DNA from: Terebella lapidaria
Taxonomy: Eukaryota; Annelida; Polychaeta; Terebellida; Terebellidae
Length of the DNA: 64,000 bases
Assembly (NCBI GenBank): GCA_949152475.1
Contig: OX424566.1
Location: 30,542,423-30,606,422, forward strand
Direction: 5' to 3'
Part shown: in pieces, positions 25,352 through 50,226 of the stretch
Layout of the letters: each line of letters starts with the position of its first letter
Position numbering within the stretch: the stretch's first letter is position 1
Made by a program: the position numbers and the translations under genes
Notes under the pieces: generated by a model
What the model was told of the DNA's origin: nothing
The model's input: the letters and a program-made list of their open reading frames with translations, nothing else
Database searches by the model: none

Positions 25352-28149
25352 ATGTCGTGGACACGCACTTGTCTGGGGACACTTTGTGTCGTCATGGCAA
25401 CGATCGCCATGACGCGAGGAGCCATGGATCCGGAGACTGCCGAGGCCATTGAGCGGTTGGAGAAGTTGGTTGGTCAAATGTCTCGTCAGATGATGATGCA
25501 GCAGTTCGACGTTGAGGAGCGCATGCGGTCAGACAGCAACTCGGGCATCAAGCGCACGCGGATTGGCCAACGCGGCACGCGCCCGTACTTTTCGGCATCA
25601 CACGTCGGGACTAGTATCGGATCGATCCACGACCACGCGAACACAAAATTTACTGTGGGAATGGGCGAGGTCGTGGCTGTACTGAACGGCATAGAGTTCC
25701 GCACCCGACACAACGACTACCGCCTCGCCATGAAAAGTACAACATCCAATACGTACGGCGCTATGAAGGATATCCCCAGTCCAGGTAATTTGTGTTAACT
25801 CCATATATAGTAACGGTCATAAACGTAATGTCACAAATTAGACATATAGGCCTATGCGTCAAGGCCATAGAGTTTGTAACGGTAGGTTCTCCAACCCACA
25901 CATTTTTGTAGTTTTCTTAGAAATTAAACCACCAACACCTAGAAAACCGCCTCTTCACTCACAATAAAAATTATGAGACATTTGGCAGTTGCAATGAAGT
26001 TGAAACCCAACAGATGACAAAAATACCAGCGTCGAACTGCCTCGATGCCGTGGTGCTGATGGTCACAGTTAAAAGGCACAAACCAGGCTATTGATTTCAG
26101 ATGTTCCACCCGAGGTACTCTCCAAGCCCACGGTCGTGGAGCAGGCTGCCGAGATGCGGGAGTGGTTCAAGGCGTGGAGGGATCAGGACCACTCGGTCCG
26201 AGACTATAGACCGTACTTCAAACCTGTGCTCTGCTACCTTGAGGGAATGTGGACGCACTCGGACCCAGACACGATCGAAGAATTCTCTCCGAGTGATCGC
26301 CACTTCCTAGACGCGAGCAGCTGGTATGAACTGCAAGGAAAGGTGTGTTCCGTAATGAACAATATAGGCCTATAATTAATAGTAACATGATTCACTCAGC
26401 AAAACGGTAGCAGACAACACTGCAAGCCACATACCAACGGAAGCACTGACACCACTTATTTAAAATCTGACTGGATATGTTTGTAGAGAATCCTCCGAAG
26501 GCACCTTTCGTGAATATTTCTGATTACAGATCCGCTACACTTCTTACTCTGGAGATAAAGACGCTTTCGAAAACTTTGCCTATCTTCCCACGGCCGTGAT
26601 GGACGTCCTTAACGATACGATTCCAGTGCTAGTACAGTGGAATTACCGGATCGCCTGCCATCCCCTGAGTCGGGACTTGCCAACCAACCGACTCAAGGTC
26701 AAGGAAGACGTCAAGACTAGACTGGCTCATGGCCTCAGCTTCGAGAAGTTCGCAAATTCTCGAGCTGCCCGTTTCCAAGTAAATGTGGAGGACAAAGACG
26801 AATGGGTAGACAAGAGCGTGGGTTACGGACTCTTAGATGAGCTGATGAGAGAGGTGCCAGGCAATGACAATTACCTAGGTAACCTGACTGATACGAACTT
26901 CGGACAGACCATCTATCCTTTCCCTGCTTCCGAAACCGAGGAGCTGAATGTTGCCTACTATTTTCGAGCGTACAGGCATCAGGAAAATGGAGCAATGGGC
27001 GTCAAAACCAGATACAAAAGTTTCGCCGATGAAAACATGTTCGTAGCACACACATCCCAACCCAAAGTCGCCGGACTGGGAGTGGAGCACTGCGAGGACG
27101 ACGTGTGTGAAACGCACTTCAGTAGGGTGTCGTACGCGATCCCCCTGGAGATCATCTACATGACGCCACTTTCTGCGTGGAACCCACATAACCTCGTGTA
27201 CAAGGGCGAGAAGGGCTCAGCTGAGGGGAAGACGATTTATGAGGGTCCCGACGGTACCACGAGGGACGGCGCCGCACACCCGGACAAAGCATTCAACGGC
27301 ACAAACTCCAAAGTTTTCTACCAGACTCCACTAGAGTTCTTCGCGGATGAACATGGTGTCGACCCTGCGGACACAACTCAAGGGTCCAGGCATGTGCTGG
27401 ATAACCAAGGCAACGTGCACGAGGTGCGGGCGTCTGGCCATCGAATCTTTATACCAAATATCCCAGGCGTGGGCATGTTACGACAGCGCTACCCCATCAT
27501 GCCCGTCTCTGGCGAAGGCAGCGCTGTCTGGAAAAACCTAGAAGCTCTCCAAGATATGTTCATGACCCCAACTAAGTTCGCTCACATGTTTCCCGAGGAG
27601 ATGCCAGTGACATATCACGTGGAACCACCCGCAGTAACCACGACAACGACATCCGCCCCCAATGTGTCAACTACACCGCCGGCCAATCAAACAATCGCGG
27701 ACAAGGTCGGTTTACCTAATGAGGGCATGCTGCACTTCCAGCTGGGGCCATCGAGTGTTGAAACCGGCTCACACACTCACTCGTTTGAGCTGAGCGAGGA
27801 TGACGCTGACCTGTACAGGGCTATGGGATCAATCGAATTGACGACTGAAACCTCAGGCGACCATTCTCACTTTATCAGGGTAATATCGCTGATCTTATAA
27901 GAATGAATAGCATAATTACAATATGCCCGTAATCATCAAGTTAACATGAACGACAGAAAACAAATACGCGATCGATTTGCTAATGATCCACGCTTCCTTC
28001 CCCCCCCCCCCCCCCCCTCCATGGCGTGTCCACCACAGGTGGCGATTGTTGAACGAAACGGCGAATACCTGCAATTGGCCAAGAAGTGTGACGGTGCGCT
28101 TAACTGCGCAGACGGACATCCGCGGCACTTGGTGTACGTCAACCTGTAG
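25352..28149 (+). CDS. Secreted His-x-His family protein, copy A (711 aa, four coding exons)
   Basis: Coding exons are 25352-25784, 26101-26342, 26530-27879 and 28039-28149, with GT-AG introns of 316, 187 and 159 bp. The ATG at 25352 was chosen because the paralog B starts at the same residue and a signal peptide follows directly (residues 1 to ~23). Residues ~26-60 are heptad-like and may form a coiled coil. An HDH motif lies at 93-95 and RHNDY at 119-123. A Trp-rich stretch is at 165-195 and a Thr/Pro linker at ~594-613. HTH is at 640-642 and HSH at 670-672. After the signal peptide the cysteines shared with all copies are at 189, 268, 413, 418, 692 and 698. Several NxS/T sites fit secretion. 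The His-x-His groups suggest metal binding, which is inference. I do not recognise the family. It is intact. Confidence 0.9.
28000..28017. repeat. Poly-C tract in the last intron of gene A
   Basis: About 18 C bases lie just upstream of the CCACAG acceptor, acting in place of a mixed polypyrimidine tract. Copy B lacks it and has a shorter intron. Confidence 0.8.
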
Positions 28150-28220
28150 GCTGTCAGCAAGACACACATCACCAGCATAAAGGATACATATGATTGTATC
28201 ATCCTTCAATGTGCAAGGAG

Positions 28221-28226
28221 AATAAA
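28221..28226 (+). promoter_or_regulatory. Poly(A) signal of gene A
   Basis: AATAAA lies 72 bp after the stop codon. The 3'UTR up to this point is clearly related to that of copy B (shared ACACATCACCAGCATA and TGTATCATCCTTCAATGTG). Confidence 0.75.
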
Positions 28227-28554
28227 TCGAGAGAATTGTTTTTTTGTGTTTTTATTTTTCAACTCATTGTCATCTGAATATAATTATGTTCAATGGGATA
28301 GTTTGAAATTCTACAGGAAGATTCTTTGTGGAACAAGGGAGAATGGTTTTCCTTGTTTTAGGGTTGAATCAATTTGGTACGTTTTATTCACCCAATGATG
28401 AAGGATAGGCCTGATATTTCAAACAATATTTTCTCGAAAACTCTCTGATACATTTATATCTCAATAACCAAAAAAAAAAAAAATCTTGATGGCGTGAGCG
28501 CAATAGTTTGATTGAATCGTTGGAAATCGGCCATGTTAGCCCTGACGGGATTAC

Positions 28555-30525
28555 CATTCTAAAAATTAGCCCAAGGGCTAAGAAAAATTACCGAACATGA
28601 TATATTTTACATATTAGTATTTTGTCCCGTGACCTTGAAAAAAAGGTCATTGGTCAATTCAAGAACACGATAATATTCGGCATATGTCATTTCTAGTATG
28701 TCCACAATTGATTCCTAAGATATAAAGTCAATAATAAGCGAGATATTAGCCTTTATGTCCTGTGACCTTCAAAATGAGGTCAAAGGTCGAATTCAAGGTC
28801 ATAGCAATATTCAGCATATATCATTTCCTATATGTTCATAATTGATTCCTAAGCTGTAAAGTCGATAATAAGCTAGCTATTAGCCATTTTGTCCTGTGAC
28901 CTTGAAAATTAGGTCAAAGGTGAAGTTCAAGGTCATGACAATGTTCAGAATATATCATTTTCTATATGTTCACAATCGATTGCTAAGCTGTAAAGTTGAT
29001 AAAAAGCGAGATATTAGCCATTTTTTCATATGATCCTGAGAATGAGGTCGAAGGTCAAATTCAATGTCATGGCAATAATCTGCATATATCATTTCCTATA
29101 TGTACACAATTGATTCCTAAGCTGTAAAGTCAATAATAAGCGAGATATTAGCCATATTGTGCTCTGACCTTGAAACTCAGGTCAGAGGTCAAATTCAACG
29201 TCACGATAATATTCAGCATATATCATTTCCCATATGTCCACAATTGATCCCTAACCTGTGAAATCGAGGTCAAAGGTCAAAATCAACGTCATCAGAACAT
29301 GCGGCATATATCATTTCCTATATGTCCACAATTGATTCCTAAGCTATAAAGTCGATAGTAAGCGAGATATTGAGACATTTGGTGCTCTGACCTTGAAACC
29401 GAGGTCAGAGGTCAAATTCAAGGTCACGAGAATATTCAGCATATATCATTTCCTTTATGTCCACAATTGATCCCTAAGCTGTAAAATCGATAATAAGTGA
29501 GATATTAACCATTTTGTCCTGTGACCTTGAAACCGAGGTCAAAGGTCAAATTCAAGGTCACGAGAATATTCAGCATATATAATTTCCTTTATGTCCACAA
29601 TTGATCCCAAAGCTGTAAAATCGATAATAAGTGAGATATTAGCCATTTTGTCCTGTGACCTTGAAAATGAGGTCAAAGGTCAAATTCAAGGTCACGAGAA
29701 TATTCAGCATATATCATTTCTTATATGTCCACAATTGATTCCTAGTCTCTAATCTCAATAATAAATGAGATATTAGGCTCAATGTGTCCCATTATAAAGC
29801 ATAGGAGAATTTAACATGGGAAAGTCCCATTTGGGCTGAGTTTGGGCCCAAAATGGCCCACTTCGAGCGATTCAAGGGCAACGAAATGTATACATGTCAT
29901 AGGGGTATATATGAAGAGTATTATGCATAAATAAGAAAAAAAGTTACTGAACAGATTTTGAGAAAACGACCGTCAAAACTCCAAAAATGGCCATTTTTCG
30001 ACGAAAACGGCCGCTCTGACCTTGAAACCGAGGTCAGAGGTCAAATTCCATGTCACGAGAATATTCAGCATATATCATTAACTATTTGTCCACAATTGAT
30101 TCTTAGTCTCTAATATCAATTTTAAGTGAGATATCAGGCTTAATGTGTCCCATTATAAAGCATAGGAGAATTTAACATGGGGAAGTCTCATTTGGGCCGA
30201 GTTTGGGCCCAAAATGGCCCACTTCGAGCGATTCAAGAGCAACAAAATTTATACATGTCACAGGGGTACATAGGAGGAGTGTTATGCATCAATAAGAAGA
30301 AAGTTACTGATAAGATTTTGAGAAAACGACCGTCAAAGTCCAAAATTGGCCATTTTTCGACGAAACGGCCGCCATTTTGAAAAAATGCGAAAATAAAAAA
30401 ACTAAAAAACACCTCCCTCTCGAAATATTTTTAGGCATTTTTGTGCAAAATTTCAGAAAAATCCGACTGTAAACTTTAAAGATAAAATTGTTGACGGACG
30501 ACGGACGACCAAGGGTCCGGTAACC
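28555..30525 (-). mobile_element. GGTTACCGGAC element, copy E2
   Basis: This is an inverted copy of E1. It starts with AAAATTAGCCCAAGGGCTAA and ends with GGGTCCGGTAACCT at 30525. It has about ten degenerate units carrying AGGTCAAAGGTCA, TCAAGGTCA and CATATATCATTTCCTATATG words. The GGCCCAAAATGGCCCACTTC block occurs twice, near 29840 and 30200. It lies in the gap between the tail-to-tail genes A and B. Confidence 0.75.
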
Positions 30526-31446
30526 TAAAAATTAGCCCAAGGCCTAAGAAAGGTTACCGGACAATTACATTTCAGATATTAGCCTTTTGTCCGATGACCT
30601 TGAAAATAAGGTCATTGGTCAATTCGAGGTCATGAGAATATTCAGCATATATCATTTGGAGTTTGACCATGATTGATTCCTAAGCTGTAAAGTCGATAAT
30701 GAGCGAGATATTAGCCATTTTGTCCTTTGACCTTGAAAATGAGGTCAAAGGTCGAATTCAAGGTCATGGAAATATTCAGCATATATCATTTTCTATATGC
30801 TCACAATTGATCCCTAAGCTGTAATGACCATAATAAGCGAGATATTAGTCATTTTATCCTGTGACCTTGAAATTTATGTCAAAGGTCAAACTCAAGGTCA
30901 CGAAAATAATCTCTATATATCATTTCCTATATGTTCATAATTGATTCCTAAGCTGTAAAATCGACAATAAGCGTGATATTAGCCATTTTGTCCTGTGGCC
31001 TTGACAATTAGGTCAAAGGTCAAATTCAAGGTCACGATAATACTCAGAATATATCATTTCCTATATGTATACAATGGATTACTAAGCTGTAAAGTCGATA
31101 ATATACGAGATATTAGCGATTTTGTCCTGTGAGATCTTGAAAGTGAGATCAAAGGTCAAATTCAAGGTCATGAGATTATTCAACATATATCATTTCCTAT
31201 ATGTCCACAATTGATTTCTAATCTCAATTAAGTGAAATATTTGGAAAAATGTTCCCCATTATAAAGCATAGGAGAATTTAACATGGGAAAATCCCATTTG
31301 GGCCGACTTTGGGCCCAAAATGGCCCACTTCGAGCGATTCATGGGCAACGAAACTTATACATGTCACAGGGGTACATATGATGAGTGTTATGCATCAATA
31401 AGAAAAAAAGTTACTGAACAGATTTTGAGAAAACAACCGTCAAAGC
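30526..31446 (-). mobile_element. GGTTACCGGAC element, copy E3, truncated
   Basis: It begins directly after E2 with AAAAATTAGCCCAAGG and GGTTACCGGAC and runs in the same direction, so the two form a head-to-tail pair. It stops near 31446 inside the AAAACAACCGTCAAAG block, so its 5' end is missing. Units are the same ~134-bp type. Confidence 0.7.
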
Positions 31447-31454
31447 CATTTTTC

Positions 31455-31640
31455 TGCCTCAACCGACGTCACCCATGACCGAATGAACCGTCGCAAGCGT
31501 GGCTAATCCTGACACTAAGTAAAAAGTGACCCAAAGTAAAATCGTTATTAAAATCTTCGGCAACTTACGGAAGGAGTGCCTATTTGATTCAATATGTTAA
31601 AACCCATCAATTATATTTGAAGAACTCGTCCTAATTCACT
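31455..31640 (-). repeat. Dispersed repeat shared with 18500-18660
   Basis: It carries GGAAGGAGTGCCTATTTGAT and AAATCTTCGGCAA, reverse complements of words at 18520-18570. It abuts the broken end of E3. Confidence 0.55.
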
Positions 31641-32700
31641 GAAAACGAGTCATAATAGACTAAATAAAGATTACTTTCGTTAGTATGCTACCCCTAGGGA
31701 TATATACCTAGCACTCATACGAGAACAGAAACGTGAACTTAATGACGTCATTCATGGCGTTGCCTTACACGTCGTTTAATAACTGTTGACCCCGAGCAGA
31801 GTGTGTTCTACAATCTCTGCCCTTAGCAACTCATAACGTAAACGTGCAAAATTTTCAGTTCATCTCTCATTTGTACAAGAGTGCGATTTCCAAGGACACT
31901 GTATCAAAATCACAAGGTATACATTTTGAATAATTTTTAGATTTCATGATATAGGCCCACTTGTGGTCATAAAGAATGCATTACAGCCTAACTCATTATG
32001 TACAGTTAACAGTAGATCTACTGTAATTCGCTTTTAGTTTTTTATAGCCACGTACAAATGATATACTCGTATCCAGAGCCGTCTAGTTAACTAGACGGCT
32101 CTGCTTGTATCCATACGTGTATATTATAGGGGTGCACAGACATGAACTAGGGTTTCTGAACTACACAACTTGAGTTGTCGTCTTCAGATGTCCAAATTTG
32201 AAACCCGATTGTTGATGGTTCTGAAAATGAATGAACTGGAAGACTTGTTGTTGTACCGAGCAATGACCAAAGATCAAAGGCGGAAGAGCATATCCTTCAA
32301 TACTCTGACGCATGGCTAATGTCGTAGCCGCTTCAGGTCAATAGCATGGTTTGATAGGTATTATTGTTTTTTTATATATAATTGTCGGTAAAGACGAGGA
32401 AACACAATAAATTTAACAGTTTAAAGCCTTAGCTATAAACTGAGCATGTAGTCTAAATCGCCCGAAGACATGGGTGATTTGGTTCGAATTTCACCATCAG
32501 GCTCAAGTACCTCCCGTGATGCGTGCAGACAACAGGACGAGATGGACTGATTCGGAGGGAATGTGTCTTCTTTGTTTTGTATTTAAATTTTTTCTATGGC
32601 CCCCTCTGATCCTATTCTGTTTCTACCCAACCTACATTCTGACAACTGGCGAGAAGGTTTGAAGTGTTTTCCCAGGTGCCAACACATGAAGTTTGTTTTG
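31640..32700. other. Intergenic DNA with a 30-bp perfect palindrome
   Basis: No gene was found. At 32074-32103 a perfect 30-bp palindrome occurs; its centre is CTAGTTAACTAG. Other sequence is AT-rich and unremarkable. Confidence 0.7.
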
Positions 32701-32703
32701 TCC

Positions 32704-32709
32704 TTTATT
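32704..32709 (-). promoter_or_regulatory. Poly(A) signal of gene B
   Basis: AATAAA on the minus strand lies 72 bp after the gene B stop codon, at the same place as in copy A. Confidence 0.75.
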
Positions 32710-32780
32710 CTCCTTCCACATTGAAGGATGATACAGGTACATGTATTCTGTATGCTGGTGATGTGTTTCCTGCTGACAGC

Positions 32781-35519
32781 CTACAGGTTGACGTACACCA
32801 AGGGACGTGGATGTCCGTCTGCGCAGTTGTTCGCGCCGTCACACTTTCTAGCAAGCTGTAGATACGCGCCGTTTCGCTCAACAATTCCCACCTAAGCACA
32901 GATCGAGGGAAAGTATCATCAAGCAATTGATGGTGATTTTTTGGTTTTTCGTTCATACGATTTGACGCTTGACCAATAATGAATATGGTGGTTAAGGAGC
33001 ATTATTATTTTACCCTGACATAATGAGAATGGTCGCCTGAGGTCTCGGTCGTCAATTCGATTGATACCATAGCCCTGTACAGGTCAGCGTCATCCTCGCT
33101 CAGCTCAAACGAGTGAGTATGTGAGCCGGTTTCAACACTGGATGGCCCCAGCTGGAAGTGCAGCATGCCCTCGTTAGGTATACCGACCTTGTCTGCGATG
33201 GTTTGGTTGGCCGGCGGTGTAGTTGTCACGTTGGGGGCGGATGTCGTTGTCGTGGTTACTGCGGGTGGTTCCACGTGATATGTCACTGGCATCTCCTCGG
33301 GAAACATGTGAGCGAACTTAGTTGGGGTCATGAACATATCTTGGAGAGCTTCCAGATTCTTCCAGACACTGCTGCCCTCGCCAGAGACGGGCATGATTGG
33401 GTAGCGCTGTCTCAGCTTGCCCACGCCTGAGATGTCCGGCAGGAAGATTCGGTGGCCAGACGCTCGCACCTCGTGCACGTTGCCATGGTTATCTAGCACG
33501 TGAGTGGAACTTCGAGTTGTGTCCGCAGGGTCGACACCATGCTCGCCCGCAAAGAACTCCAGTGGAGTCTGATAGAAAACTTTGAAGTTTGTGCCGTTGA
33601 ATGCTTTGTCCGGGTGGTCGGAACCATCTCTTGTGGTGCCGTTGGGGCCCTCGTAGATCGTCTTCCCCTCAGCAGTGTACTTCTCTCCCTTGTACACGAG
33701 GTTGTATGGGTTCCAAGCTGAAAGTGGCGTCATGTAGATGATCTCCAGGGGTATTGCGTAGGACCACCTACCGGAATTCGTTTCGCACACGCTGTCCTCG
33801 CAGTACTCCACTCCCAGTCCAGCGACTTTGGGTTGGGATGTGTGTGCTACGAACATGTTTTCATCGGCGAAACTTTTGTATCTGGTTTTGACACCCATTG
33901 CTCCATTTTCCTGGTGCCTGTACGCTCGAAAATAGTAGGCAACATTCAGCTCCTCGGTTTCGGAAGCAGGGAAAGGATAGATGGTCTTTCCGAAGTTCGT
34001 ATCAGTCAGGTTACCTAGGTAATTGTCATTGCCTGGCACCTCTCTCATCAGCTCATCTAAGAGTCCGTAGCCCACGCTCTTGTCTACCCATTCGTCCTTG
34101 TCCTCCACATTTACTTGGAAACGAGCAGCTCGAGAATTTGCAAACGTCTCGAAGCTGAGGCCATGAGCCAGTCTAGTCTTGACGTCTTCCTTGACCTTGA
34201 GTCGGTTGGTTGGCAAGTCCCGACTCAGGGGATGGCAGGCGATCCGGTAATTCCACTGTACTAGCACTGGAATCGTATCGTTCAGGACGTCCATCACGGC
34301 CGTGGGAAGATAGGCAAGGTTCTCCAAAGCGTCTTTATTTCCAGAGTAAGAAGTGAAGCGGATCTGTAATCAGAAAGATGAAAGGGGCCTTCGGATGATT
34401 ATCTACAGGCATGTCATTTCAGATTATAAAATGGGTGATATCAGTGCTTCCTTGATATGCGGCTTGTTGTCTGCTATCGCGTTTTTTAGTTAACCATGTG
34501 GATATCAGTTAAAGGGTTGTATATTGGTCGTATACAGAACTCACCTTTTCTTGCAGTTCATACCAGCTGCTCGCGTCCAGGAAGTGGCGATCACTGAGAA
34601 AAGATTCTTCGATCGTGTCTGGGTCCGAGTGCGTCCACATTCCCTCCATGTAGCAGAGCACAGGTTTGAAGTACTGTCTGTAGTCTCGGACCGAGTAGTC
34701 CTGATCCCTCCAAGCTTTGAACCACTCCCGCATTTCGGCAGCCTGCTCCACGACCGTGGGCTTGGAACTCACCTCGGGCGGAACATCTGGAAACAATTGA
34801 GAGCCTGTCTCATGCTTAACTGTGTCTATCAGCGTCTTAACCGCCTAAACGACTAGGAGGTTATTCTCCGCCGCTCGTTTCGTCTTTGTTCGTGTTTGAG
34901 TTGATCAATTTACGAAAATACTTTTACTGCCAAATGTGTCATAATTAATTTCATCTAGAGCTATGAAAACTCCTGACAAGTCTGGATATTTGTGTGTTCG
35001 GTTAGAGTAGATTGGAAAGTCTACAAACGCTATGGCCTTGACACATATATATGTCTCATGAAATAATAATGGAAGGTTACAGACACTACCTGGACTGGGG
35101 ATATTTTCCATAGCGCCGTACGTATTGGATGTTGTACTTTTCATGGCGAGGCGGTAGTCGTTGTGTCGGGTGCGGAACTCTATGCCGTTCAGTACGACCA
35201 CGACCTCGCCCATGCCCACCGTCAGTTTCGCGTTCGCGTGGTCGTGGATCGATCCGATACTAGTCCCGATGTGTGATGCCGAAAAGTACGGGCGCGTGCC
35301 GCGTTGTCCAATCCGCGTGCGCTTGATGCCCGAGTTGCTGTCTGACCGCATGCGCTCCTCAACGTCGAACTGCTGCATCATCATCTGACGAGACATTTGA
35401 CCAACCAACTTCTCCAACCGCTCAATCGCCTCGGCAGTCTCCGGATCCATGGCTCCTCGCGTCATGGCCGTAGCCATGACGATACAAAGTGTCCCCAGAC
35501 AAGTGCGTGTCCACGACAT
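32781..35519 (-). CDS. Secreted His-x-His family protein, copy B (710 aa, four coding exons)
   Basis: Coding exons on the minus strand are 35519-35090, 34786-34545, 34363-33014 and 32891-32781. Their lengths are 430, 242, 1350 and 111 bp, identical to copy A except for one codon missing in the signal peptide. The product is roughly 93% identical to A over the large exon. Differences cluster around the two cysteines at A residues 413 and 418. It keeps the signal peptide, HDH, HTH and HSH motifs, the six cysteines and the Thr linker. All splice sites are GT-AG and the frame is open, so it looks functional. It converges on copy A with about 4.6 kb of repeats between them. No TATA box was seen just upstream. 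Confidence 0.9.
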
Positions 35520-35663
35520 GATTATGCCTGATTTTGTGGAATGTAGGTTTCCTTGAACAGAGCCTCCAGTTCTGTCAAAACAATATATGTTGAACTATAG
35601 ACTTCCTCGTGTGTGTATATGTTAAACATATACATAAATAAGATTTAGGTTTATCATCTTTTG

Positions 35664-35795
35664 AAGGGGAGTACGGAAGCCAGTGGGGATATGGGAATTG
35701 GGTATTGGGAATTGCGTAGTAGTAAACCATGGGCCGGAGCCCCAAACCGGAGCCCCAATTCCCATGTCCCCACCAGCTTTCCGTAGGGGAGACAT
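35664..35795. repeat. Small hairpin element upstream of gene B
   Basis: GTGGGGATATGGGAATTGGG on the left returns as CCCCAATTCCCATGTCCCCA on the right, together with flanking TACGGAA..C words. Arms are about 38 bp with a few mismatches. It lies 145 bp or more upstream of the gene B start codon and could affect its promoter; that is inference. Confidence 0.65.
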
Positions 35796-35799
35796 TGGA

Positions 35800-36590
35800 G
35801 AGTTCCAGATGCACGTTTATGTGGACGAGGTCTTTACGTGAAGATTAAATAAACGTTGTGACGTCATGATGTTGGGCTTCCCCAAGATAACTACTTCACT
35901 ATAAAGCTTATGGTAGGCCCCATGAAAAAAAGTTAAACACGACAATCTCGCGTAAGTTTCCCACGGACGCAGAGTTCCAGATACCTTGCGGTATTATTTA
36001 TTTTAAGGCCATTGCAGAAAACTTTTTTTTTTTTTTTTTGTGGTGGGCATCTTGTTTTTCTCATTCGGCTGAAATTCAACAATAGCCACCCACCACAGGA
36101 CCCGATGTATGTGTACAAGAAATTTCGTGATGATATCTTGGTATGTTTCAGAAAAAAAAGTGCATTACGTCGTTTTTCCCAAAAAAAAGTTTTTTTTTGG
36201 TTTTTTTTTCGTTTTTTTTTTTTTTGTGGCGGAAACGTAGTGTATCCATCAAACTCGAATGTGAATAAATGCCCAAATTGGCCTTAAAATTCCACATTGA
36301 GTGCATTTTCCAGTTTGTATCTGCAAATATGGTGTAGTTATGAGAAAATAGTTAGTGATATACCATGATGTGCGTGGAATTGTCAGTCCATCTTGCATTT
36401 TTACGCTTTGTTTACATATGCGTGTGATGGATTCAGTTCATTTGTTTATATAAAAAACTGACATAAAATGTGTGTTCAATCGAATGAAAAGACAACTCGG
36501 ACGGAGTGTATTCGACAAAATCAATGTGCACATGTTTTATCATCTTGTATTTACGGCAGCATATTTAGGACATGGGGGAAATATTTTTCT
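35800..36590. other. AT-rich intergenic DNA with poly-T runs
   Basis: No gene. Two T-rich runs each end in TTTTGTGG (near 36025-36043 and 36189-36228), and a TTTACATATGCGTG stretch is present. Possibly old poly-A tails of retrocopies on the minus strand, but no body was recognised. Confidence 0.4.
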
Positions 36591-36594
36591 ATTT

Positions 36595-38829: not shown

Positions 38830-39214
38830 GTAGGCGCTGAAGAGGTTAAACGATTCAGAACTAATGTGTGGGAATGGTCATTCTATACTTGTACGTTGTC
38901 ATGTAGTAATCTTGGGGCTGAATAAATGACACTAATTTGTATGAACATTTTTCCGACTTATTTCCACAAATATTAGAACATCATATCTGAATATCGACTC
39001 TGGGGCACTCCAATGAACACCCAAGCGCGTTTGTATTCTGAACATGCAGATGATAGCGATCCATCCAGTAGATGTGCACAGAGTCCTACATATAACTGTC
39101 TTTAAGGGAGCACAAAAATATGGCTCGTATATTTTCTAACACTGCATTATTCGGATATAATTTTACTCGGAATTAGATTGCACGACGATACTTTGGTAGT
39201 GAGCTGTTTGTAGA

Positions 39215-39862
39215 GATGGAGAGGATCACGACAGCGTGCTGCAGTAGACAGATTGGTTTGTCTCATGCCCCTTGTCTCATAGGCAGTATATCATCATCTT
39301 GGATGGCTTGTCCAGTCATACGACACCCCCTGAGCCTGACATCTATAGTGTCCAGGGTGGCATGGCTCTCACTAGTGAAGACTGAAGACCACATGACGCC
39401 AGTGCTGCAAGGTCAGGGGTTCATGCTGCCTGGCCCATGCCATTGTCGTTGTTGAAGTAGAGGTCGCCTGATCAATCTCCTAGCCTTGTAACTAGCGAAA
39501 ATCAACCTTTTACTCTGGACAGCCCGATCCAGACGGCGTGACCACTCGTTGGCCAGAGACTGCGCCGGACGTCGTCGGTTTTCACGCATCATGCGCATCG
39601 GTACGTGGCCTTCACGGTCCGTAGAGATGCATGGACGTTAGCCCGATGTACAAGGAGCTAAATCGACAGAATTCGCATACTGTTTGAGTACTTTACTCGC
39701 TGCTGACTGAGTGATCAGCACTAAGGTCGCAGTCTCTGTGTGCTGGCGGCCACCTTGTCGATATCGGATGATCAAATCTCTCATATCTCTGCCCAAATGA
39801 CGCACCATCTTTTGAACTGTACTAAAATGCAGTTTTATATGAATATAGTGGCCGAAACCCAC
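39215..39862 (-). pseudogene. Tc1/mariner-like transposase remnant
   Basis: On the minus strand, from 39862, a helix-turn-helix part (RDMRDLIIRYRQGG, then TQSAASKVLKQY) is followed after frame changes by a middle part (RRRPAQSLANEWSRRLDRA; ARRLIRRPLLQQR). A decayed catalytic part follows (VVFSxxSHATL, then RLRGCRMTGQAI). This order matches Tc1-like transposases, in which the VxFSDES word carries the second catalytic Asp. At least two frame changes or stops split it into three short frames, so it is an inactive fossil of a DNA transposon. Confidence 0.7.
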
Positions 39863-39869
39863 CTGAATA

Positions 39870-41199
39870 TGCCCTTCCCTTATTTAATCAACTCATTTGC
39901 CCTGACTCATCACCAACGTTACTCCAAATTTAGCCATAAACATACCAAAGTACATGGGATAATACGGATATTAATTTTATACATGTACATCTGAGTTGAG
40001 TATGTTTAGCAACAGAGTCTCAGCACAGACGCCGGTGAACGGTTGAATGGTCATTTCATTCTTAGTAAAATAAAGATATTGCTCTCAAATTTACATATCT
40101 GTGGCTGCTGGAGAGAGTACAAATTGCAAATTACTCTCGGACCCCCAGACCCCACTAAGTTTGCTCGCTCGCCAAAAACGCGCCACTAACAAACCCGAAC
40201 TGGGTTACTGACCGGTATCGATTTTTCTTATATGGTCAAAACGGAGCATCACGGTACTATATTATTTTTGAAAAATCACAGCTTCTGCTCAAAACGCACA
40301 GGTAAAGATGTAGGAGGGCTCTTTTTAGATTGTATTCTTGTAGGACAACCATTTCCCTTCCTACGTGTAAGTTTTCAAGATCAATTAAGCTTTCACTGGG
40401 CGGAAGCACAACTGAGTAAATTTTAGAAGTCATATACAAGGCTTTCACATACTAAATTTATTCGGAGATTGAATATATTATCAAGTATTTTCCAGCCAAA
40501 CATTAAAATAAAAGTGTACGTGGTTCTTAATGGGGTGAAGTGACCCTTACTCAAATCCTGGATCCGCCTCTGCCAGCTTCGTGCCTAGCCGGAAGACAAA
40601 ATTCTAGGCCGATATTGATTACTACACGAAGTTGGGTGTGTGACCATTAAAATATAAATGTCACATTCTTTTTTTCTTTATGGATAAAAAATGAAACAGG
40701 AAAAACTTACCAACTGATGAGTTGTACAGTTGGATTTTCTCACTGTATGCTTGCTCCCTCTTTCTGCCGTTTCGGTCTCAAGGTGTGTGTCCCGAGACTC
40801 TGATGGTCTCCACTTAATAAGTAGCCATATTTATATACGATTGAGTTCAGTGCGTTTTGCGTCGTCCGTTTTTTTTATTTTTCGCCCACGTAAGAGACCC
40901 TCTCCCTTCTCAACCCTCACATTTTTCATCCAAATAAAATGATAATGATGAAATAAAACTAAACACGGGTCCTGTAGGTTACTGGTGATAACATGGCCCA
41001 ATGAGTTAATTGAGTCTCCGTTTCGATATAAATTCGATGTCACAAAAGGAAGTTATTTGACTTCTTATATATCCCTTGAGCTTATACCCTGGCTGGCACC
41101 GTTTCTGTTGCTGTGACATTTTGCTTTGACATGACGAATTCACTTCGAGTCATTTTCGGGCCAACATGGCTAAATTCGAGGAACTCAATCAAGCCAGCA
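39870..41199. other. Intergenic DNA, no recognised gene
   Basis: Short frames only. The word TCAAATCCTGGATCCGCC near 40553 resembles TTCAAATTCCTGGATCCGCC near 54215 and may mark the end of an old shared repeat. Confidence 0.5.
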
Positions 41200-41202
41200 T
41201 AA

Positions 41203-42443
41203 GGGGCCGGTCATTATTTATCGGGTGGGGGGTTGGATGGATTTTTCGAGAAATGAGTTTTCAAAGTTTGACCCCCCCCACCGATATTGAGAAACAATGT
41301 ATGACCCCCCCACCAAGATCAAAAATAAAAGTGTGACCCCCCCAATCCCCAAGTACATATACATGACCATAATACGCAATTGATGACAATTATAAGGAGC
41401 CAGTATGATATCTAAATGCTGTTTTTACACTTCATTCACATTTCTATTAAAACATTTGTGACTTTTGTCGCAATTTTTTTATACTATACATAAGTGGATA
41501 TTATGAATTTGTGCCATTACAACTGATTTAGTTATTATTTGTGGGCATATTATATCGGTATGGTAATGACAGCCTCCGAGTGAACTCGGAAAAATTATAA
41601 CTCTTCCACATATCATTGATGAATCAGGCCATCCTGGACTGGTACTTTCTCGACCTTGAATCAAACCTGTGTTGGCTCCATGATGGGTTCATAATGTTCC
41701 GTGATGATCGGCGATTGTCTAGCAATGTCCTGGACACCAAGAAAGTCAGGTAAATCAGATTCACTATATCGTCATCCGGGACGATCCAGGACTATTTTGC
41801 AATCCTTGATGGAAAGGTCCATGCTGTGTTCATGGCGGTCCAGGACAGTCCTGAGCTCATCGAGGATTATCCTCAGTGGTCGGGGTTCCTGTGTTGGCAA
41901 CGTGTTAAATGGAAAATGGTCATTGGATGTTATGAGATGTTGGTCAGCATGATATGGGCCGGGTGATCCATTGTTAGTCTGTGACAGTGCCCTGCATGTT
42001 GATCATCCTGACTGGCACCGTATTCAGCTGCAGTGCTGCTGTGTTCTATCAAGGTCCATAGTTGATCCGTGGTGACAATGTTTCAGTCTGTGGGTGATGA
42101 GCGGTTGTCGATTCACGACATCTCCTCATTTTGGGTGTTCCTGGATGGTCCTTTCTAGGATCAAATTTTGGCAGAACTATAGTTTCACTGATAATGCGAC
42201 AAAAGGATGGTTTCCAAATGCTGTATACTCCAGTGAACCATCAGTCCAGGTTGATTGGATTGTTTTCACCCAATTCACTATTTCAATATAAAATTTTCCT
42301 CAAATTAACTGAAATTCGAACTCCGACCCCCCCAGTTCCATTGAAAATAAAAGTATGACCCCCCCAATAATGTTGAAAATGAAAGTGTGACCCCCCCCAG
42401 TTTTTACCCAACCCCCCCCACCTGATAAATAATGACCGGTCCC
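41203..42443. mobile_element. Inverted-repeat DNA transposon, 1241 bp, TAA target duplication
   Basis: The left end GGGGCCGGTCATTATTTATC and the right end (reverse complement GGGACCGGTCATTATTTATC) match over about 36 bp with few changes, continuing into GGTGGGGGG and TTGG. TAA flanks it on both sides (41200-41202 and 42444-42446). Next to each end are TGACCCCCCC repeats. A 3-bp TWA duplication is typical of PIF/Harbinger elements. No transposase is present, so it would depend on another copy. Confidence 0.8.
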
Positions 42444-42565
42444 TAAATAGCCCTGCGCGATGGAGATTTTGTCCATTTTTATACAATGAACACGGGACGT
42501 CCATGGATGCAATTAACGCATCGACATTATATCATGGTCATCGGACCATTGGTGCGGTAACCTAA

Positions 42566-42625
42566 CTTGCCACTAGTTACCTGGTGGGTAACTGGTGAGT
42601 TACCTGGTGGGTAACTGGTGGCAAG
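42566..42625. repeat. Short hairpin of GTTACCTGGTGGGTAACTGG units
   Basis: CTTGCCAC at the left pairs with GTGGCAAG at the right. Between them GTTACCTGGTGGGTAACTGG occurs twice. It follows a fragment of the GGTTACCGGAC element end (GGTGCGGTAACCTAA near 42551). Confidence 0.65.
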
Positions 42626-42629
42626 GAGG

Positions 42630-43195
42630 GTGTTTCAAGCCTGTGTTCGTCACAGTTGCCCAATCTCATAAACGACAGCCGTCGTGCACCGCTTCACCCC
42701 CGGTAAATTACTTCCTAATCGCTCACCCCGCCACATAACATGGGATCATTCTTCGCTAAACAAACCGCGCACTCAGTTATCCCGTGCACATCCATCGGAA
42801 ATATCTAAATATTATTATAATGGTGACAATAAATTGATACTTACATCCACGCCATCTACGTCACCCACTTACTGGACAAATTAAAAAGCTTTACAACATC
42901 AACATCTGTTGCATAAGCTATGTTACCTACATTTCATCCAATTAACCCCCCCCCCCCCCGGCTTTCTCACAAGGGGCTTGGGGCGACAGGGTATGTTTCC
43001 AAGGGAAGTAGAGGGGCCGGCCCAAGTATCATACGCTGCGCCTTAATACTACTCGTCCACTAAATGAATGCCATTTAATCCGTCTGTCACCTTTTTAATG
43101 CTTATTGAATATAGAGGAAGGCGCAGGATATGATACTTGGACCGAAGGACCTCGCGAGACACAAGCCGGAATGTATGTCAAACGAGACAATCAGA
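42630..43195. other. Intergenic DNA, no recognised gene
   Basis: It contains a word GTGACAATAAATTGATACTTACAT near 42823 similar to the end of the 12117-12624 terminal repeat, and a short poly-C run near 42949. Nothing else was recognised. Confidence 0.45.
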
Positions 43196-43199
43196 GATT

Positions 43200-44040
43200 G
43201 CAGACCCTCGCCCCTTCAGATTTAGTAACTCAATTTAAGCTGATGACCATTACATTACTGATGACTTGGGCGACAATACTCGGGGATTTTGGTCGTACGA
43301 TAGTCGGCACCTGACCAGAGAAATATACAAAAATCTTGGGAGGAATACTCGTTACTAAACGTAGAGTTCTGATGATTTTTTTCTGTTTTGACCATATTCT
43401 CGACCACGCCCTACATTTTTGATACTGACCTTGCAAACTTTACAAGCTCTCTCAGATTATGATGCATACTTTATGTTCGATAATCTTTTGAATAGTGGTT
43501 TTAGAATTACTACTGCTTGAAATGTTACGAATCGGTAATTTCAGCTGATGACCCTTACATTTTCGATCTTGGGCGATAATGGGGAATATTGATCGTACGA
43601 CCATTGGTTATTCAGCAAAGCATAAGGAATTGACCATAGAAAAATACAAAATTGTTAGGAAAAATAATCTTGAATATAAGTAAAATTATTGCAACTTCTC
43701 GAGTTTCGCCTTTTCTGTGACCTTTACCTTCTCGTTCGATATTGAGCTGTAAAATTTCACAGTATCGTTTCTATTATCACTGTACATCTGAAAGAAAACG
43801 GTTAAAAAGGATATCGAAAACTGGCCTCACATTATGGTCTTGAATTTCAGAATACTCAAGAGTCGAAAAATCATGATCCCCAAATTTTCGACCTTCGGCG
43901 ATAGTAGGGAGTTTTGGTCATAAGAATATCGATCGTACACCAAAGGATTGGGGATTGGCTATGGAGGAAAAAAATGGTCAGAAAAAAATATTGATTAAAA
44001 CCGGAGTTATAACCAATTATGTCATTTTGACAAAAAAAAA
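43200..44040. repeat. Degenerate ~310-bp tandem repeat, three copies
   Basis: Blocks near 43238, 43540 and 43868 share AGCTGATGACC-TTACAT, TTGGGCGA-AAT, GGGA-TTTTGGTCGTACGA, and GACCA-AGAAAAATACAAAA words in the same order. Divergence is high. Confidence 0.5.
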
Positions 44041-44079
44041 ATGAGGAGGACCGAACCACTGTCATACCGCTTCACGCCT

Positions 44080-46620
44080 ATTTGTGATTCTGACATAGTG
44101 TTTTACAGTTCTCAAAACAGCAGAAAACCGTGTTTTTCACTTGCATGTTTCTCTCTCTTATGGGTTTCTGGTAAGAGCTATTTTTGTTTCACTCGCCACC
44201 CTGTGAATGTGCTGTTAGAGTGTGTATTCCCACACGCACCTTTACTAGTTTACAAATTTACTAGTAGGTGCTGAAATTATTATTTCATTGTTTTTTGTTT
44301 TTATTATTGGTGACTTCATAAACCATGCACACGTGTCTTCATTCTTCATCTATTGAAGCATGATGAAGATACAAATATTTCGAATTAGTTATGTTGATAG
44401 CCGAAATAATCATATCAATTTAGACTCCAGTTATTTTAAATTGGACCCAAATGCGGTTTCCATAAAGCGGGGTGTGTGGCAATGTTCAAACGACACTTTT
44501 CTATTCTTAGCATCCACAGAAAAAATGAATTGTTGATAACGTTTCTGATATAAACATATTTCCGCTCATAATGAATATTGAGTATTCACGTGACTATCAA
44601 TTATATATCGTGGGTGTATATATCTGTCTCCTACTCTCATTATAATGTACATAAAGCTTATAACAACCGACATAAAAACATGTATTCCTGAACGGCACAT
44701 GGCGATTATTACTAAAGTATATAGCCATATAAGCTGTGGACCGCATCTTGTACTGATTATTGTCCATCAATATAATATAGAAACAACAATTCAGAGAAAT
44801 ACGAAGGTTTACGTTAGATTCTATTAACTAGATGATGATGCTTACGATACGTTTACCACACGCTCTCATATTTATCACAGTGTATCATGACGCACTAATT
44901 CTTAATCAAGATTTATTATACGCTGAATAATAAATAGTGCATTTATTTAAAATATGAAGATTGATTAAAGATTCTCAAGAACAGCTCGTGTGTCGTCATA
45001 ACGCAAAATATGTATGTATTTGCAAAATACCTTAGCACATTATGACCGGGAACAGTTTAACAGTATTGATTTTCATTTTAGGTTGCTTATTATTCAGCAA
45101 TCACTCCTTATCAGCCGATTACTGGTACATGTATGTTATCGGACATGTAGAGAGGGGAGTGTTTGTTCTACAAACATTCAATTAAACCAGAACCTTCTTA
45201 CATTATTACCTGTGCTAACTGTGATTTCTAAATAATACATGCATATCACCTTGATGCTCCGAATTTAAATGCGAAGTCATATGTGGCGAATTTATAGGTG
45301 GCCTCGAGTTTGACCTTTATGACATTAAAAGATCAAAACGGCAATGTTGATGAAAAAAAGTTGTGGCTTAACACTACTCTTTCTCAGCCCTTCGGCTACT
45401 TTTTTTTTTATTTGGTTTGTAGCTCTGCAACTGGGAGATGTTGTTTCCTACCGTATGTGCTGTTATTGTGTGCAATACGTATTATATCGATTCGCGAATG
45501 TGAATGAAATAATTTAGATTAAAGTACGAATGAATCATTTATCATCAAAATGAACGACGAAATCTTCTCTGATACGGCCGATGAGCTGTTGTTCTCTTCC
45601 ACTTCATCCTTGACAAATTCGTTAGTGGCCACCTGACTTTATGATACCATCTATGACCCGCCACAAACTGATTCGTTTAGATTTTCTTCTCTTATGAATT
45701 GGAGTGGGATTATCTCTGAAGATTTTTCTGTTTCATTCTAATATACGAGGTTTGTATAATAATAATATAAGTAACCACACACAGCATTTCATCGGTGACC
45801 GAATGTGACATTGGGTGAATGTGAGTGTTCAAAGTTAAGTTCACGACGAGTTGAAATGCACAAAATGACTCTTGGATACACACAAAAATGGCATTAGAGC
45901 CATTAGAGTTTATATTATGAATATATAGGAAGTTTTTGTTGATCTTGAACTTAACGTTAGGAGATGACATTGCCTATCAGCTTTCAAAGATTGAGTTAAC
46001 CACCAACTGAGAGTGTTTTTTTTCTCTCAATACAAAATTCTTGAAGATAAACTAAGATTTATATTATGCGCAACTAAGCATAATCTTGGGGATCGTTTGG
46101 CGACCTTGAACATGATCTGAAACGAACTTATATAGCAATGTCGTTTTTGTTCTTGCAATTAGACGATAATCGTTATAATGTTTTCATGTCACCAATTACC
46201 ACTGGCGGGTCCAGCGGGGGCGGGAGGGGGGAGGGGGTCGTAGGGCAGTGGGGACGTGCGCCATTGGTTGCATTTCCTTGACAAAATATTGTGTTTACTC
46301 ATAAATATTACAAGAATCAACATGAAATCTGTAGCGTGGAATGTAGGCCTCTATGGTCTTGTGGCAGTCTACATGTACTCTGGTGAATTTATATATGGCT
46401 CAGGAAAATCAAATTCCTGTCTCGGTCCAATCTATGTATGTTTATTAATGAATGTACATTTTGTGGGTCTAAGGGGTTTCCGGCTAGATAACAGCAAATC
46501 TTTTATTTTTGTATACAATGTATGCATGGGTAATAAATGATTTCATTCAATTTCATGCTGCATATAAATCCAAGGCGTTGCTTTCTAAAAAAAAAACGAA
46601 ATAAAAGACCTGTTGCATTT
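44080..46620. other. AT-rich intergenic DNA, no recognised gene
   Basis: No gene. A G-rich tract at about 46206-46252 has several GGGG runs. Near 45384 the word CTTTCTCAGCCCTTCGGCTA resembles the GGTTACCGGAC-element tail, so a decayed fragment may be present. Confidence 0.5.
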
Positions 46621-46631
46621 GCAGACGTACA

Positions 46632-46650
46632 TTTATTGACCCATTTTATT
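46632..46650 (-). promoter_or_regulatory. Poly(A) signals of gene C
   Basis: Two minus-strand AATAAA words lie at 46650-46645 and 46637-46632, about 60-80 bp after the gene C stop codon. Confidence 0.6.
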
Positions 46651-46710
46651 TACAATCACATCAACCCGCAGTTTGTTGTAAAGCTGTTTCCATGGCGACT
46701 ATCCGGGAGA

Positions 46711-49700
46711 TCAGGCGAGAAGCAGTATTTTTCTGTTGTGTCCGTCCCAGCATTCAGTTTTCCCGTCGCACTTTTTAGCTATGTTGACCTTCCCACTGGC
46801 CCACTCACCTATCTGCATCTGAAGCTCGTGAGAGTGGCCGTGCATCTCATTTGTGAGTATAGTCACCATCTCCCCACTAAGGTAGCGCTGTGTGTCCTCC
46901 CCGGTAAACTCAAACGTGTGCGTGTGGGGCGCGACAGTGGTGTTCGTGGACACCTGCGTCTCAAAACGCAAAGTGCCCGAGTAGTCAGCGGGGAGGTCTT
47001 CAATCTTCATCTCTGCCTTTTCTTCGAGTAGCTGTACATCGACTGCCTGGGTGGTCATTGGAACCTCCACCGGGTATGCAAATCTGTTATCTGTCGGGTA
47101 GAGGAGAGCCTCCTTAATGGCAGCTAATTCTTTCCACACAGGGCTTCCTTCCCCGTGGACTGGAGCAATGACGTATCGAGTACGCAGGCTGCCAACATCG
47201 GGAATGTTGGGTAGGATGATGCGAGTACCTGAGGCACGCACTGCTCTCACGTTACCTTCGGCATCCAAAACATGCAAGTGTTCTTGAGTTGTGTCAGCCG
47301 CGTCGACGTACGTCATATTTTCAAAGAAATCTAGGGGCGTGCGATAGTAGACTCTAGAATTGGTTCCATTGTAAGCCTTGTCGGGGCTCGCGGATCCATC
47401 GCGTCTGCCATTGGGGCCGTCATAAATGACATCGCCATCCCTACCCTTGCCTTTGTAGTCAATGTTGTAGGGGTTCCACTGAAGGAGGGGCGTCAAGTAG
47501 ACGATCTCAAGGGGAATAGCGTAGCACCATCGCTTGTGCCACGTCTTGCAAGTGCCGTCCTCCAAGCATGCTTCCGTGCTGAGTCCAGCGACCTTCTTGT
47601 TAGTAGTCTCGGCGAGGAACATGTTCTCGTCGCTGAACCCCCTTCGCCGCAGCCTGAGCCCCGATGCTCCAAACGACTCCACTCGGTAGACTCTGTGGTA
47701 CCGTGCTGTATTCAGCCTCTCCGTGCGCTCCGTCGGTAATGGGTAGACAGTCTCGAAGTTCAGATCATCCTCTATCACCTCCGGGTAGTTGCCCGCTGAG
47801 GGGATCTCCTCCATCAGCTCATCCAGGAAAAGGTAGTGGGAATCCTTGTCCGCCCACTTGTGGCTATTCTTGGAGTTCAGCTGCGAGGAAACATACGGAC
47901 CGGGAATTGTGCATGAGATAACTAAGTTTTTTTTTAACAGTCTAAAGTCCCAAAAGGTGACACTTTCAGCATCTGGTAACATGGAATCAACTGAAAGTCT
48001 CCTTCGATTTGACATTGTAAGCATGTAGCTCACGTAATTATACTGACCTGGAAGCGGGCAGCGCGAGACTGCTTATATTGCGAGAAGCTCATGCCATGGG
48101 CCACTCTGGTTTTCAAATCGTCCACTGCGCCGATGCGATTAAGTGGCAGATTCCTCTTGAGCGGATGGCAGAGGATTCGGTAATTCCACTGGACAGTCTC
48201 AGGGATTGTCCCATTTCGGAGGTTGAAGATGGACGTAGGGAGGAAAGCGAGGTTCTCGAACTGGTCCTTGGCCCCAGAGTAGCTACTGAATCTCAACTGC
48301 AATGTGTACAGTTGGGATAATGATTGGACCCGGATGTCTGCATAGGTTCCATGTGCACATTATTAGTGTGTTGTAAGATACAAGACCGAATGGACTAAAT
48401 GTATGCCAAGCGGAACTCAAAGATGCCAAGTGGAGCGTAAAGCACACTATTTCAATGTCACCACTTTCGGTTGCTCGGACGTTTCAGATTAGATTTCCTG
48501 CTGTTTACTTGTAAGCCAAAAATAAGATGTATTAGGAGCCTATAACTTAAAATACCATGTAAATACGAGGTGTGTATTTAGAAAAAAAAGTATAAACTTC
48601 CTTACTAATGAAGCTATATTAACATTAATTTGTCGTAATATATATGTTTACTGTCTTGACTTGTCCATCACAGACGGAATGGTTACCATGGCGACCAATG
48701 CAACCGGTAGGCTTGGCAATGCAACCAGTAGGCGAAGCATTTTTCACTCTGGCGACCGGTACCACCAGTAGGCGGGGGATATTGCACCAAGGCGATCAAT
48801 GCCAGCAGTAGGCGGGGCATATTTCACCATGGCGACCAATACCACCAGTGGGGGGGGGGTCATATTTCACAATGGCGACCAATACCACCATTAGGCGGGG
48901 GTATATCACCATGGCGACCAATGCCACCAGTAGGCGGGGGATATTGCACCAAGGCGACCAATGACAGCAGTAGGCGGGGCATATTTCACCATGGCGACCA
49001 ATACCACCAGTGGGGGGGGGGTCATATTTCACAATGGCGACCAATACCACCATTAGGCGGGGGATATATCAGCATGGCGACCAATGCCACCAGTAGGCGG
49101 GGCATATTTCACCATGGCGACCCATACCACCAGTAGGCGGGGCATATTTCACCATGGAGACCGATACAACCAGTAGGCCGGGCATATTTCACGTTCATGT
49201 AAAGTATCATTTTATGAATTACAGTTGATTTCCTAATTGATGCTAAACTTCAGACTAACAGCAATCTTTCATCGGATGATTTTTTAATGATTTCTGTGTT
49301 TTTAACATATTGACGTTAAGAAGCTCAACTACATGTGCTGAATATGTTTGTAGAATGTTGGGTGAAAACAATACGATTCAAACATAGAGGGTTTTCATCT
49401 GTACAGCCATCGAGTGACTGTAGAGTTGGCGATAGCCATCGTGTACTGGACCCGGGTCATCAAAATTATACTTGTTATTGATATTCAGGAATATGTTTAT
49501 ACAGATGCTTTAGTTATCACAATAATTATACGGTATGATAGCATATAATCACACCATCAGACTAACCTTATTCGTTAGTTCATGCCAAGTCTTGGCGTTC
49601 AGGGAATGTCGATCACTCTCGAATGATTCGTCGATGCTGTCCGCATCCGAGTGCGTCCACATCCCCTCGAGGTAGCAAAGGGTCGCCGTGAAGTACGGTC

Positions 49701-50226
49701 TGTAGTCTCGGACTGAGTAGTCCTGGTCTCTCCACGCCTTGAACCACTCCCGCATCTCAGCAGCCTGGTCGACCGGGTCGTCAAGTGCCAGCACTGCTGG
49801 GGGAACCTCAGGGAGAGGCACCTCCTCCGTAGCACCATACTCACTACTCGTCTTGCTCTTCATCAGCATCATGTAGTCGTTATGCCTCGTGCGGAACTCG
49901 ATCCCGTTCAAGAGGGCGGTGAATTCGCCGAGACCAATGGTGTAGCGGAAGTTGGAATGATCGTGTATGCCCATAACCTGCGCATCCACGTGGGTTGCTC
50001 CGTAGTAGGCCTTCGTACCCACTTGATGTGTGCGCATTCTCTTGATGCCGGAGCTACCATCGCCTCGGTTTTTTTCTTCGTACGTGAGCTGTTGCATCAT
50101 GACCTGGTGCGTCAGTGTGGTGATGACCTCTTGCATACGCTCTAGAGCCTCTTCCGTCTCCGCATCCATTGCTCGGGACGTGGCGATCGTGGCCAGTAGG
50201 CCACAGAAACACACACACCAGTACAT
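46711..50226 (-). CDS. Secreted His-x-His family protein, copy C (692 aa, three coding exons)
   Basis: Coding exons on the minus strand are 50226-49567, 48296-48048 and 47880-46711, with GT-AG introns of 1270 and 167 bp. The ATG at 50226 precedes a Cys-rich signal peptide. The HDH motif is at residues 88-90, followed by the conserved GEFTALLNGIEFRTRHNDY word. The six non-signal cysteines are kept, as are HTH and HSH near the C-terminus and the CDG...CxDG end. Unlike A and B, the first two exons are fused, as are the last two, and an extra intron follows RFQ. The intron after residue 220 is shared with A and B. The Thr linker is replaced by an acidic stretch. Similarity to A and B is clear but much lower than between those two. 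It looks intact. Confidence 0.88.
48690..49190. repeat. 40-bp minisatellite in the first intron of gene C
   Basis: Units of 40 bp contain GGCGACCAATACCACCAGTA and GGCGGGGCATATTTCACCAT. A group of four units (about 161 bp), marked by GTGGGGGGGGG and TTTCACAATGGCG, appears twice in a row near 48846 and 49007, so there is a higher-order repeat. Confidence 0.9.

Follow-up and report, generated by a model that had tools for sequence, protein, structure and literature searches.

Predicted secreted proteins of the annelid Terebella lapidaria share a core with the distal domain of phage tail-fibre proteins

Introduction

Two histidines separated by one residue (HxH) are known to bind metal in trimeric phage fibres. 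According to the portions of PMC6116203 and PMC11705849 drawn on here, HxH pairs of the trimeric T4 gp37 fibre hold iron through six histidines, and the first of these sources describes an iron, assigned as Fe(II), held by six histidines of the trimer through the HxH of the R-type pyocin fibre. We analyzed a stretch of 64,000 nucleotides from the annelid Terebella lapidaria (GenBank assembly GCA_949152475.1, contig OX424566.1, positions 30,542,423 to 30,606,422 of the forward strand; hereafter the window, with its first letter as position 1), in which three paralogous genes, A, B and C, encode proteins of about 700 residues with several HxH pairs. As far as these sources describe the two iron fibres, they have an HxH at a conserved position as the core of A-C does, although this core has no sequence or fold match to any solved structure searched. 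Here we report that the core, about 500 residues in each protein, is almost certainly homologous to the distal domain of phage tail-fibre proteins. The three genes are the following:

25352..28149, plus strand: gene A, 711 amino acids (aa), four exons (25352-25784, 26101-26342, 26530-27879, 28039-28149), AATAAA at 28221
32781..35519, minus strand: gene B, 710 aa, four exons (35519-35090, 34786-34545, 34363-33014, 32891-32781), AATAAA at 32709
46711..50226, minus strand: gene C, 692 aa, three exons (50226-49567, 48296-48048, 47880-46711), AATAAA at 46650, 46637 and 46507

Results and Discussion

Homology of the core to tail-fibre proteins

Relatives were found with tblastn against a database of annotated plasmids and phages, using two parts of gene C:

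46714..47880, minus strand: a 389-aa piece, the last exon of gene C, source of the first matches to relatives
49567..50226, minus strand: exon 1 of gene C, 220 aa, with the signal-peptide-like start, HDH and RTRHNDY

The last exon matched a 'phage tail protein' of Tistrella mobilis (E=8e-21) and gp431 of Bacillus phage G (E=1e-8), and exon 1 matched the same two genes (E=2e-7 and E=2e-4, respectively), so that the matches comprised one plasmid and phage G, which is present twice in the database. The other 14 phage rows for the last exon were DNA methylases at E 9-10 and were discarded as chance. Residues 54-557 of C align colinearly with residues 231-704 of the Tistrella protein at 31% identity. 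Pattern scans of viral contigs with two alignments of the animal proteins alone (A1 and A2) confirmed none of their 154 and 13 matches, whereas mixed alignments of animal proteins and relatives found 15 viral loci and six genome loci, the latter in Tistrella, a Hydrogenophilales metagenome-assembled genome, Pseudomonas and three Pseudoalteromonas; a second pattern set gave 23 viral loci, some of them on contigs of the first scan. The patterns were RTRHN, L-x-Y-x-E-x-x-W and E-M-R-E-x-F, and HDH was in none of them. Among genomes the family is thinly spread, being present in 1/369 genomes sampled from the class of genome G001, 4/99 of its genus and 2/298 of the family of genome G002, with the centre genome counted in each case.

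Each of A, B and C matched all 33 open reading frames (ORFs) of the relatives, near-duplicates and one truncated Tistrella copy included, with E values from 1e-68 (A against the Pseudomonas ORF L020, 34.6% identity) to 2e-17 for the weakest. By comparison, 200 shuffles of the C core reached at most 30.4 bits, against 216 bits for the real sequence. All three animal proteins also have the features of the core family: a colinear stretch of about 480-520 aa with HxHxN, RTRHxDY, SxRH, EN, TPxxxWNP and DxADT. After removal of L003, L004, L048 and identical rows from the 33 ORFs, 25 distinct rows remained (about ten of them, L033 and L035-L043, near-identical to each other), and when they are aligned with A, B and C, 47 columns are identical across the 28 distinct sequences, including H88, H90, N92, E101, R112, R114, H115, D117, E187, H207, E234, D387, E428, D496 and D499.

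In the preliminary description of this DNA no known domain had been recognised in the three proteins. This stands for the profile and sequence searches of Pfam, NCBIfam and PDB, where no family reached a curated cut-off or E < 0.001: the best Pfam match of the animal proteins was only the Phage_fiber repeat (E 1.3 and 4.7), and PDB sequences came no closer than E 1.2 and 1.5. The best PHROGs matches (E 0.017 and 0.29) were to families of unknown function. It does not stand for the core as a whole, given its homology to phage tail-fibre proteins.

Tail context and architecture of the relatives

The gene context, inspected for the Tistrella, L020 and L021 loci, is that of phage tails, and in Tistrella and Pseudomonas the gene occupies the place of the tail fibre in a contractile-tail cluster. 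Upstream of the Tistrella gene lie baseplate V, PAAR, GPW/gp25, baseplate J and tail protein I genes, and downstream of it two hypotheticals followed by sheath, tube and tape measure. In Pseudomonas, L020 is preceded by baseplate and tail proteins and followed by sheath and tape measure (PHROGs), and three of the five tested neighbours of L021 are baseplate, tail-collar-fibre and tail-fibre proteins by PHROGs, the remaining two being one that matches unknown families only and one without match. The Tistrella cluster on pTM2 (L001 3460-17353) is flanked by metabolic genes. None of the genes annotated in the 18.5 kb inspected is a head gene, and the cluster may encode a tailocin-like particle instead of a full phage.

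Furthermore, the N-terminus of several relatives is the Pfam domain Phage_tail_fib (Tistrella 8e-16, L010 7e-11, L034 5e-10, L033 2e-51). Between 58 and 838 residues precede RTRH across the 25 distinct rows, the shortest (L014, L041) being ORFs that start at a contig end, and the shared core therefore lies beyond the attachment end. PF12571 (Phage_tail_fib, > 23 bits) has no match in A, B or C; a tail-attachment N-terminus was not detected in them, and a signal-peptide-like one stands in its place. Nor does the window contain any recognised tail gene. A, B and C thus carry a homologous domain and are not tail fibres.

Individual relatives compare with A-C as follows. The Tistrella mobilis pTM2 protein TMO_RS29830 (WP_014752772.1; annotated 710 aa) shares HDH, RTRHNDY, PLE..TPL..WNPY, ADT and RASG with A-C, but it differs from them in its Phage_tail_fib N-terminus and its place in a contractile-tail cluster, and in having no cysteines, no HTH/HSH module and no introns. 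Phage G gp431 has the core in common (119 bits in the comparison with C, and 26-28% identity to each of the three proteins), with HNH where A-C have HDH, and unlike them has a different N-terminal half and no later HxH pair (row L013). Ahead of its core gp431 (L002 3562-6603) also has an ILEI-like segment, at 25.4 bits against a Pfam cut-off of 27. The Pseudoalteromonas prophage tail proteins L021-L023 and the viral contigs L014-L017 likewise share the core, but where their ORFs are complete they are longer than 1000 aa and include a lengthy N-terminal region that A-C do not have.

Three intact genes of an animal genome

Three intact paralogues of some 700 residues had been claimed in the preliminary description, and our exon models, built by hand from the sequence and verified by script, bear this out: reading frames are open in all three genes, each of the eight introns runs from GT to AG and an AATAAA is found downstream of every stop codon. 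The N-termini of A, B and C are hydrophobic and signal-peptide-like, which is the ground on which the proteins are apparently secreted. A and B are arranged tail-to-tail, are 94.5% and 86.5% identical in two aligned blocks and have introns at the same places, while C is 52% identical to A and 51% to B. One intron position is common to all three (after A225, B224 and C220); the other intron of C and the other two of A and B differ. The ratio of nonsynonymous to synonymous changes (dN/dS) between A and B is 0.040/0.219 = 0.18 by NG86 and 0.19 by YN00, which is consistent with purifying selection on this pair. Between A or B and C synonymous sites are saturated (NG86), so the duplication that separates C from A/B is old. 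A tblastn search with A, B and C found no further copy in the window besides these loci.

Tandem arrays with a unit of ~134 bp, in which AGGTCA-like words are abundant, occur at 11129-12104, 28611-29776 and 30574-31221, and the last two separate genes A and B. The first intron of gene C contains a 40-bp minisatellite of 11.8 copies (48717-49192).

The strong phage and bacterial similarity could in principle reflect an artefact, namely bacterial contamination or a dead insertion in the animal assembly. Against this, all three genes have GT-AG introns and AATAAA signals, a retrotransposon and tandem arrays surround them, A/B dN/dS is 0.18, and A and C diverged long ago (52% identity, saturated synonymous sites). 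The introns, AATAAA signals, retrotransposon reverse transcriptase and integrase ORFs and the A/B dN/dS indicate genes of the animal. On these grounds, including the animal-like flanks, contamination was rejected, and we regard an artefact as barely credible.

Histidine pairs, cysteines and the metal question

The histidine motifs of gene A lie in two separate stretches:

25628..25720, plus strand: exon 1 stretch of gene A from HDH (residues 93-95) to RTRHNDY (117-123)
27523..27879, plus strand: end of exon 3 of gene A beyond the phage-like core, with the Thr-rich linker, HTH (640-642) and HSH (670-672)

HDH begins at A93, B92 and C88, HTH at A640, B639 and C622 and HSH at A670, B669 and C652, so that the three pairs are where they had been described. 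GIEFRTRHNDY is likewise present in A, B and C. The six non-signal cysteines said to be shared are exact for A and B, while C has a seventh, C422, in addition to them. Shuffled A, B and C contain on average 1.07, 0.78 and 0.79 HxH per protein, compared with 3, 3 and 5 observed (P 0.08, 0.04 and 0.002). The number of HxH pairs alone is therefore near chance in such histidine-rich proteins, but their conservation goes beyond chance.

In this regard, both HDH histidines are kept in 25/25 distinct phage and bacterial relatives (HNH in 23, HDH in 2), as are the RTRH histidine and the S-x-R-H histidine, and functional constraint on the first pair, already suspected within the animal family, is thereby supported. 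The animal-only features are the signal-peptide-like start, the Thr-rich linker (A/B), the C-terminal HTH/HSH module and the cysteines. The latter (C184, C263, C408/C414, C674/C680) are missing from the relatives, save for one C in 1/25 at the C263 column, and may be disulfides acquired for extracellular life.

It had also been proposed that HDH, HTH and HSH make up one site, as in a native animal secreted metalloprotein with a single metal. All three pairs are indeed kept between C and A/B. However, the HDH histidines occur in every one of the 25 relatives, 19 of which have no later HxH pairs 25-45 residues apart, and the ancestry of the core is not animal-only. Since these 19 keep the core pair without the later module, HDH is independent of HTH/HSH. 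The phage-like core of A ends near residue 556, and HTH/HSH belong to a module of their own at the C-terminus. The joint site has thus to be given up, and the native metalloprotein of which it was part is very improbable. We propose separate sites instead, in which the pairs would hold structural metal, HDH inside the core and HTH/HSH in the module that follows it. By analogy to the R pyocin and T4 gp37 fibres, HDH might then be where a trimer binds its structural metal. That the proteins bind metal is plausible, since trimeric phage fibres, in the accounts of them used here, use HxH for this purpose, and we see even chances that the HDH of A-C binds a metal.

The C-terminal module and the Pseudoalteromonas insert

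Six of the 25 relatives (L014-L017, L022 and L023) contain an insertion in the middle of the core that bears HYH, HxH and HQH. This small HxH-rich insert is limited to L021-L023 and L014-L017; other relatives are without it. The Pseudoalteromonas-type domain sits in the middle of the core, whereas the animal HTH/HSH are C-terminal. Aligned by hhalign, the animal module and the insert gave E 0.0011 but a probability of 20%; the alignment places their first two HxH pairs opposite each other. In the model of L023 the insert is predicted fairly well (block means 67-91) as HxH, helix, strand, HxH, strand, and the animal exon model, of poor confidence, has the same order. Judging from these alignments and models, homology of module and insert is possible. 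The animal C-terminal domain alone found nothing better than E 7 and 0.4 among plasmids and phages, and the insert had no significant match among phages; a viral scan with the insert confirmed four loci, all on contigs already found.

Structural models extend the comparison of the core. The L023 core model has a mean predicted local distance difference test score (pLDDT) of 66 and a predicted template-modelling score (pTM) of 0.72. Foldseek against a viral library returned phage G gp431 as the sole strong match (E 8e-42, TM 0.67 by query), the second being phage G gp420 (E 4e-4, TM 0.11), and against PDB the best E was 0.47. Within the reach of Foldseek and PDB, no solved structure shares the predicted fold of the core.

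Origin and direction of transfer

In both trees A, B and C group together as a single clade (100/100), whose stem is 1.75 and 1.64 changes per site long, respectively. The first tree included 15 of 21 ORFs, L003, L004, L006, L007, L008 and L019 being omitted as copies or truncated, and the second added 7 of the 12 new ORFs. By tree path the nearest sequence to the animal clade is the viral contig L012, which is also the best BLAST relative of C, that of A and B being L020. The core occurs in Bacillus phage G, Tistrella, Hydrogenophilales, Pseudomonas and Pseudoalteromonas, placed after differing N-terminal parts. Transfer from phage to animal is favoured because the phage side is diverse and, where inspected, set in tail proteins. 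We consider this direction probable, and homology to the tail-fibre module taken jointly with descent from phage to animal is likewise a likely account.

The probable course of events is that a tail-fibre gene entered the animal lineage from a phage or prophage long ago. Its attachment N-terminus would have been replaced by a signal-peptide-like start, introns, six cysteines and the HTH/HSH module would have been added, and the acquired gene would then have been duplicated and, as A/B suggest, kept under purifying selection.

The opposite course, in which an animal family donated the domain to phage tails, has a published parallel: in the portions of PMC12923769 available to us, C1q and other domains are proposed to have been acquired by extracellular contractile injection systems, which are phage-tail-like particles. 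Additionally, our trees are unrooted. On the other side, the phage and bacterial sequences are diverse and carry the core behind differing N-termini, whereas the animal side is seen as three paralogues of one genome, and we judge reverse transfer improbable.

Proposed function and the enzyme alternative

Phage fibres suggest by analogy that A-C could be secreted proteins that bind bacterial or glycan surfaces, a use that we propose tentatively. Such proteins would probably be oligomeric, like phage fibres, and their binding would serve immune, gut or mucus defence or the handling of symbionts. More tentative still is the fuller proposal that the host-recognition end of a fibre was turned into secreted, disulfide-stabilised, metal-bearing proteins that bind bacteria, that is, into phage-derived receptors of animal immunity or symbiosis.

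A serious rival is that the core has enzymatic activity, perhaps against surface polysaccharide, and is carried by phage tails and reused by the animal as a secreted hydrolase, with the invariant His, Asp, Glu and Arg as active site. This alternative concerns function and is compatible with a phage origin. Depolymerases are often carried on phage fibres and spikes, and many of the 47 positions invariant in 28 distinct sequences are polar. However, no enzyme family in Pfam or NCBIfam and no solved structure, by sequence or by fold, matches the core, and part of the invariance was built in by the search patterns. We hold the enzyme to be somewhat unlikely.

Several points weigh against descent from a phage fibre and a binding function in the animal. 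As to descent, the stem of the animal clade is long and the program warned of long branches, in addition to the missing root; the animal side was sampled from a single genome; the uptake of animal domains by phage-tail-like particles has, as cited, a published precedent; and Phage_tail_fib has no match in phage G gp431, L011, L012, L021 or L023. As to conservation and function, RTRHN, L-x-Y-x-E-x-x-W and E-M-R-E-x-F are conserved partly by selection, being the patterns searched with, and the strong invariance, at 47 positions, does not resemble a receptor-binding tip, which evolves fast, and could point to an enzyme or a structural core. Lastly, the HTH/HSH module resembles the Pseudoalteromonas insert only weakly, and mean pLDDT is 48 for the animal exon model and 47 for the part of the single-chain L023 core model that contains HNH.

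Transfers of genes from bacteria and phages to animals are known, mostly of enzymes, lysozymes and toxins, and a transfer between Wolbachia and mosquitoes has reportedly been found (PMC2647948). If our account of phage descent is true, a secreted animal family derived from the distal module of a tail fibre would be a different class of transferred part. No animal family of tail-fibre origin was among the literature matches listed, in a search that lay outside most subscription journals and bioRxiv preprints, and within the same scope neither 'RTRHND' nor phage G with gp431 was mentioned. The core domain, undescribed so far, gains an evolutionary anchor, and the residues to focus on are the 47 that are invariant across phage and animal sequences.

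Surroundings in the window

On the minus strand, ORFs of a long terminal repeat (LTR) retrotransposon at 3114-7612 encode reverse transcriptase, RNase H, integrase H2C2, rve and Integrase_p58_C; from its look we take the element to be of the Ty3/Gypsy class. The next ORF (7441-9627) has no Pfam match. The 10-kb stretch around 3114-7612 has 57-63% G+C, compared with 35-51% in the rest of the window. Beyond gene C, tandem arrays with units of 20, 34 and 40 bp are dense at 56370-57840.

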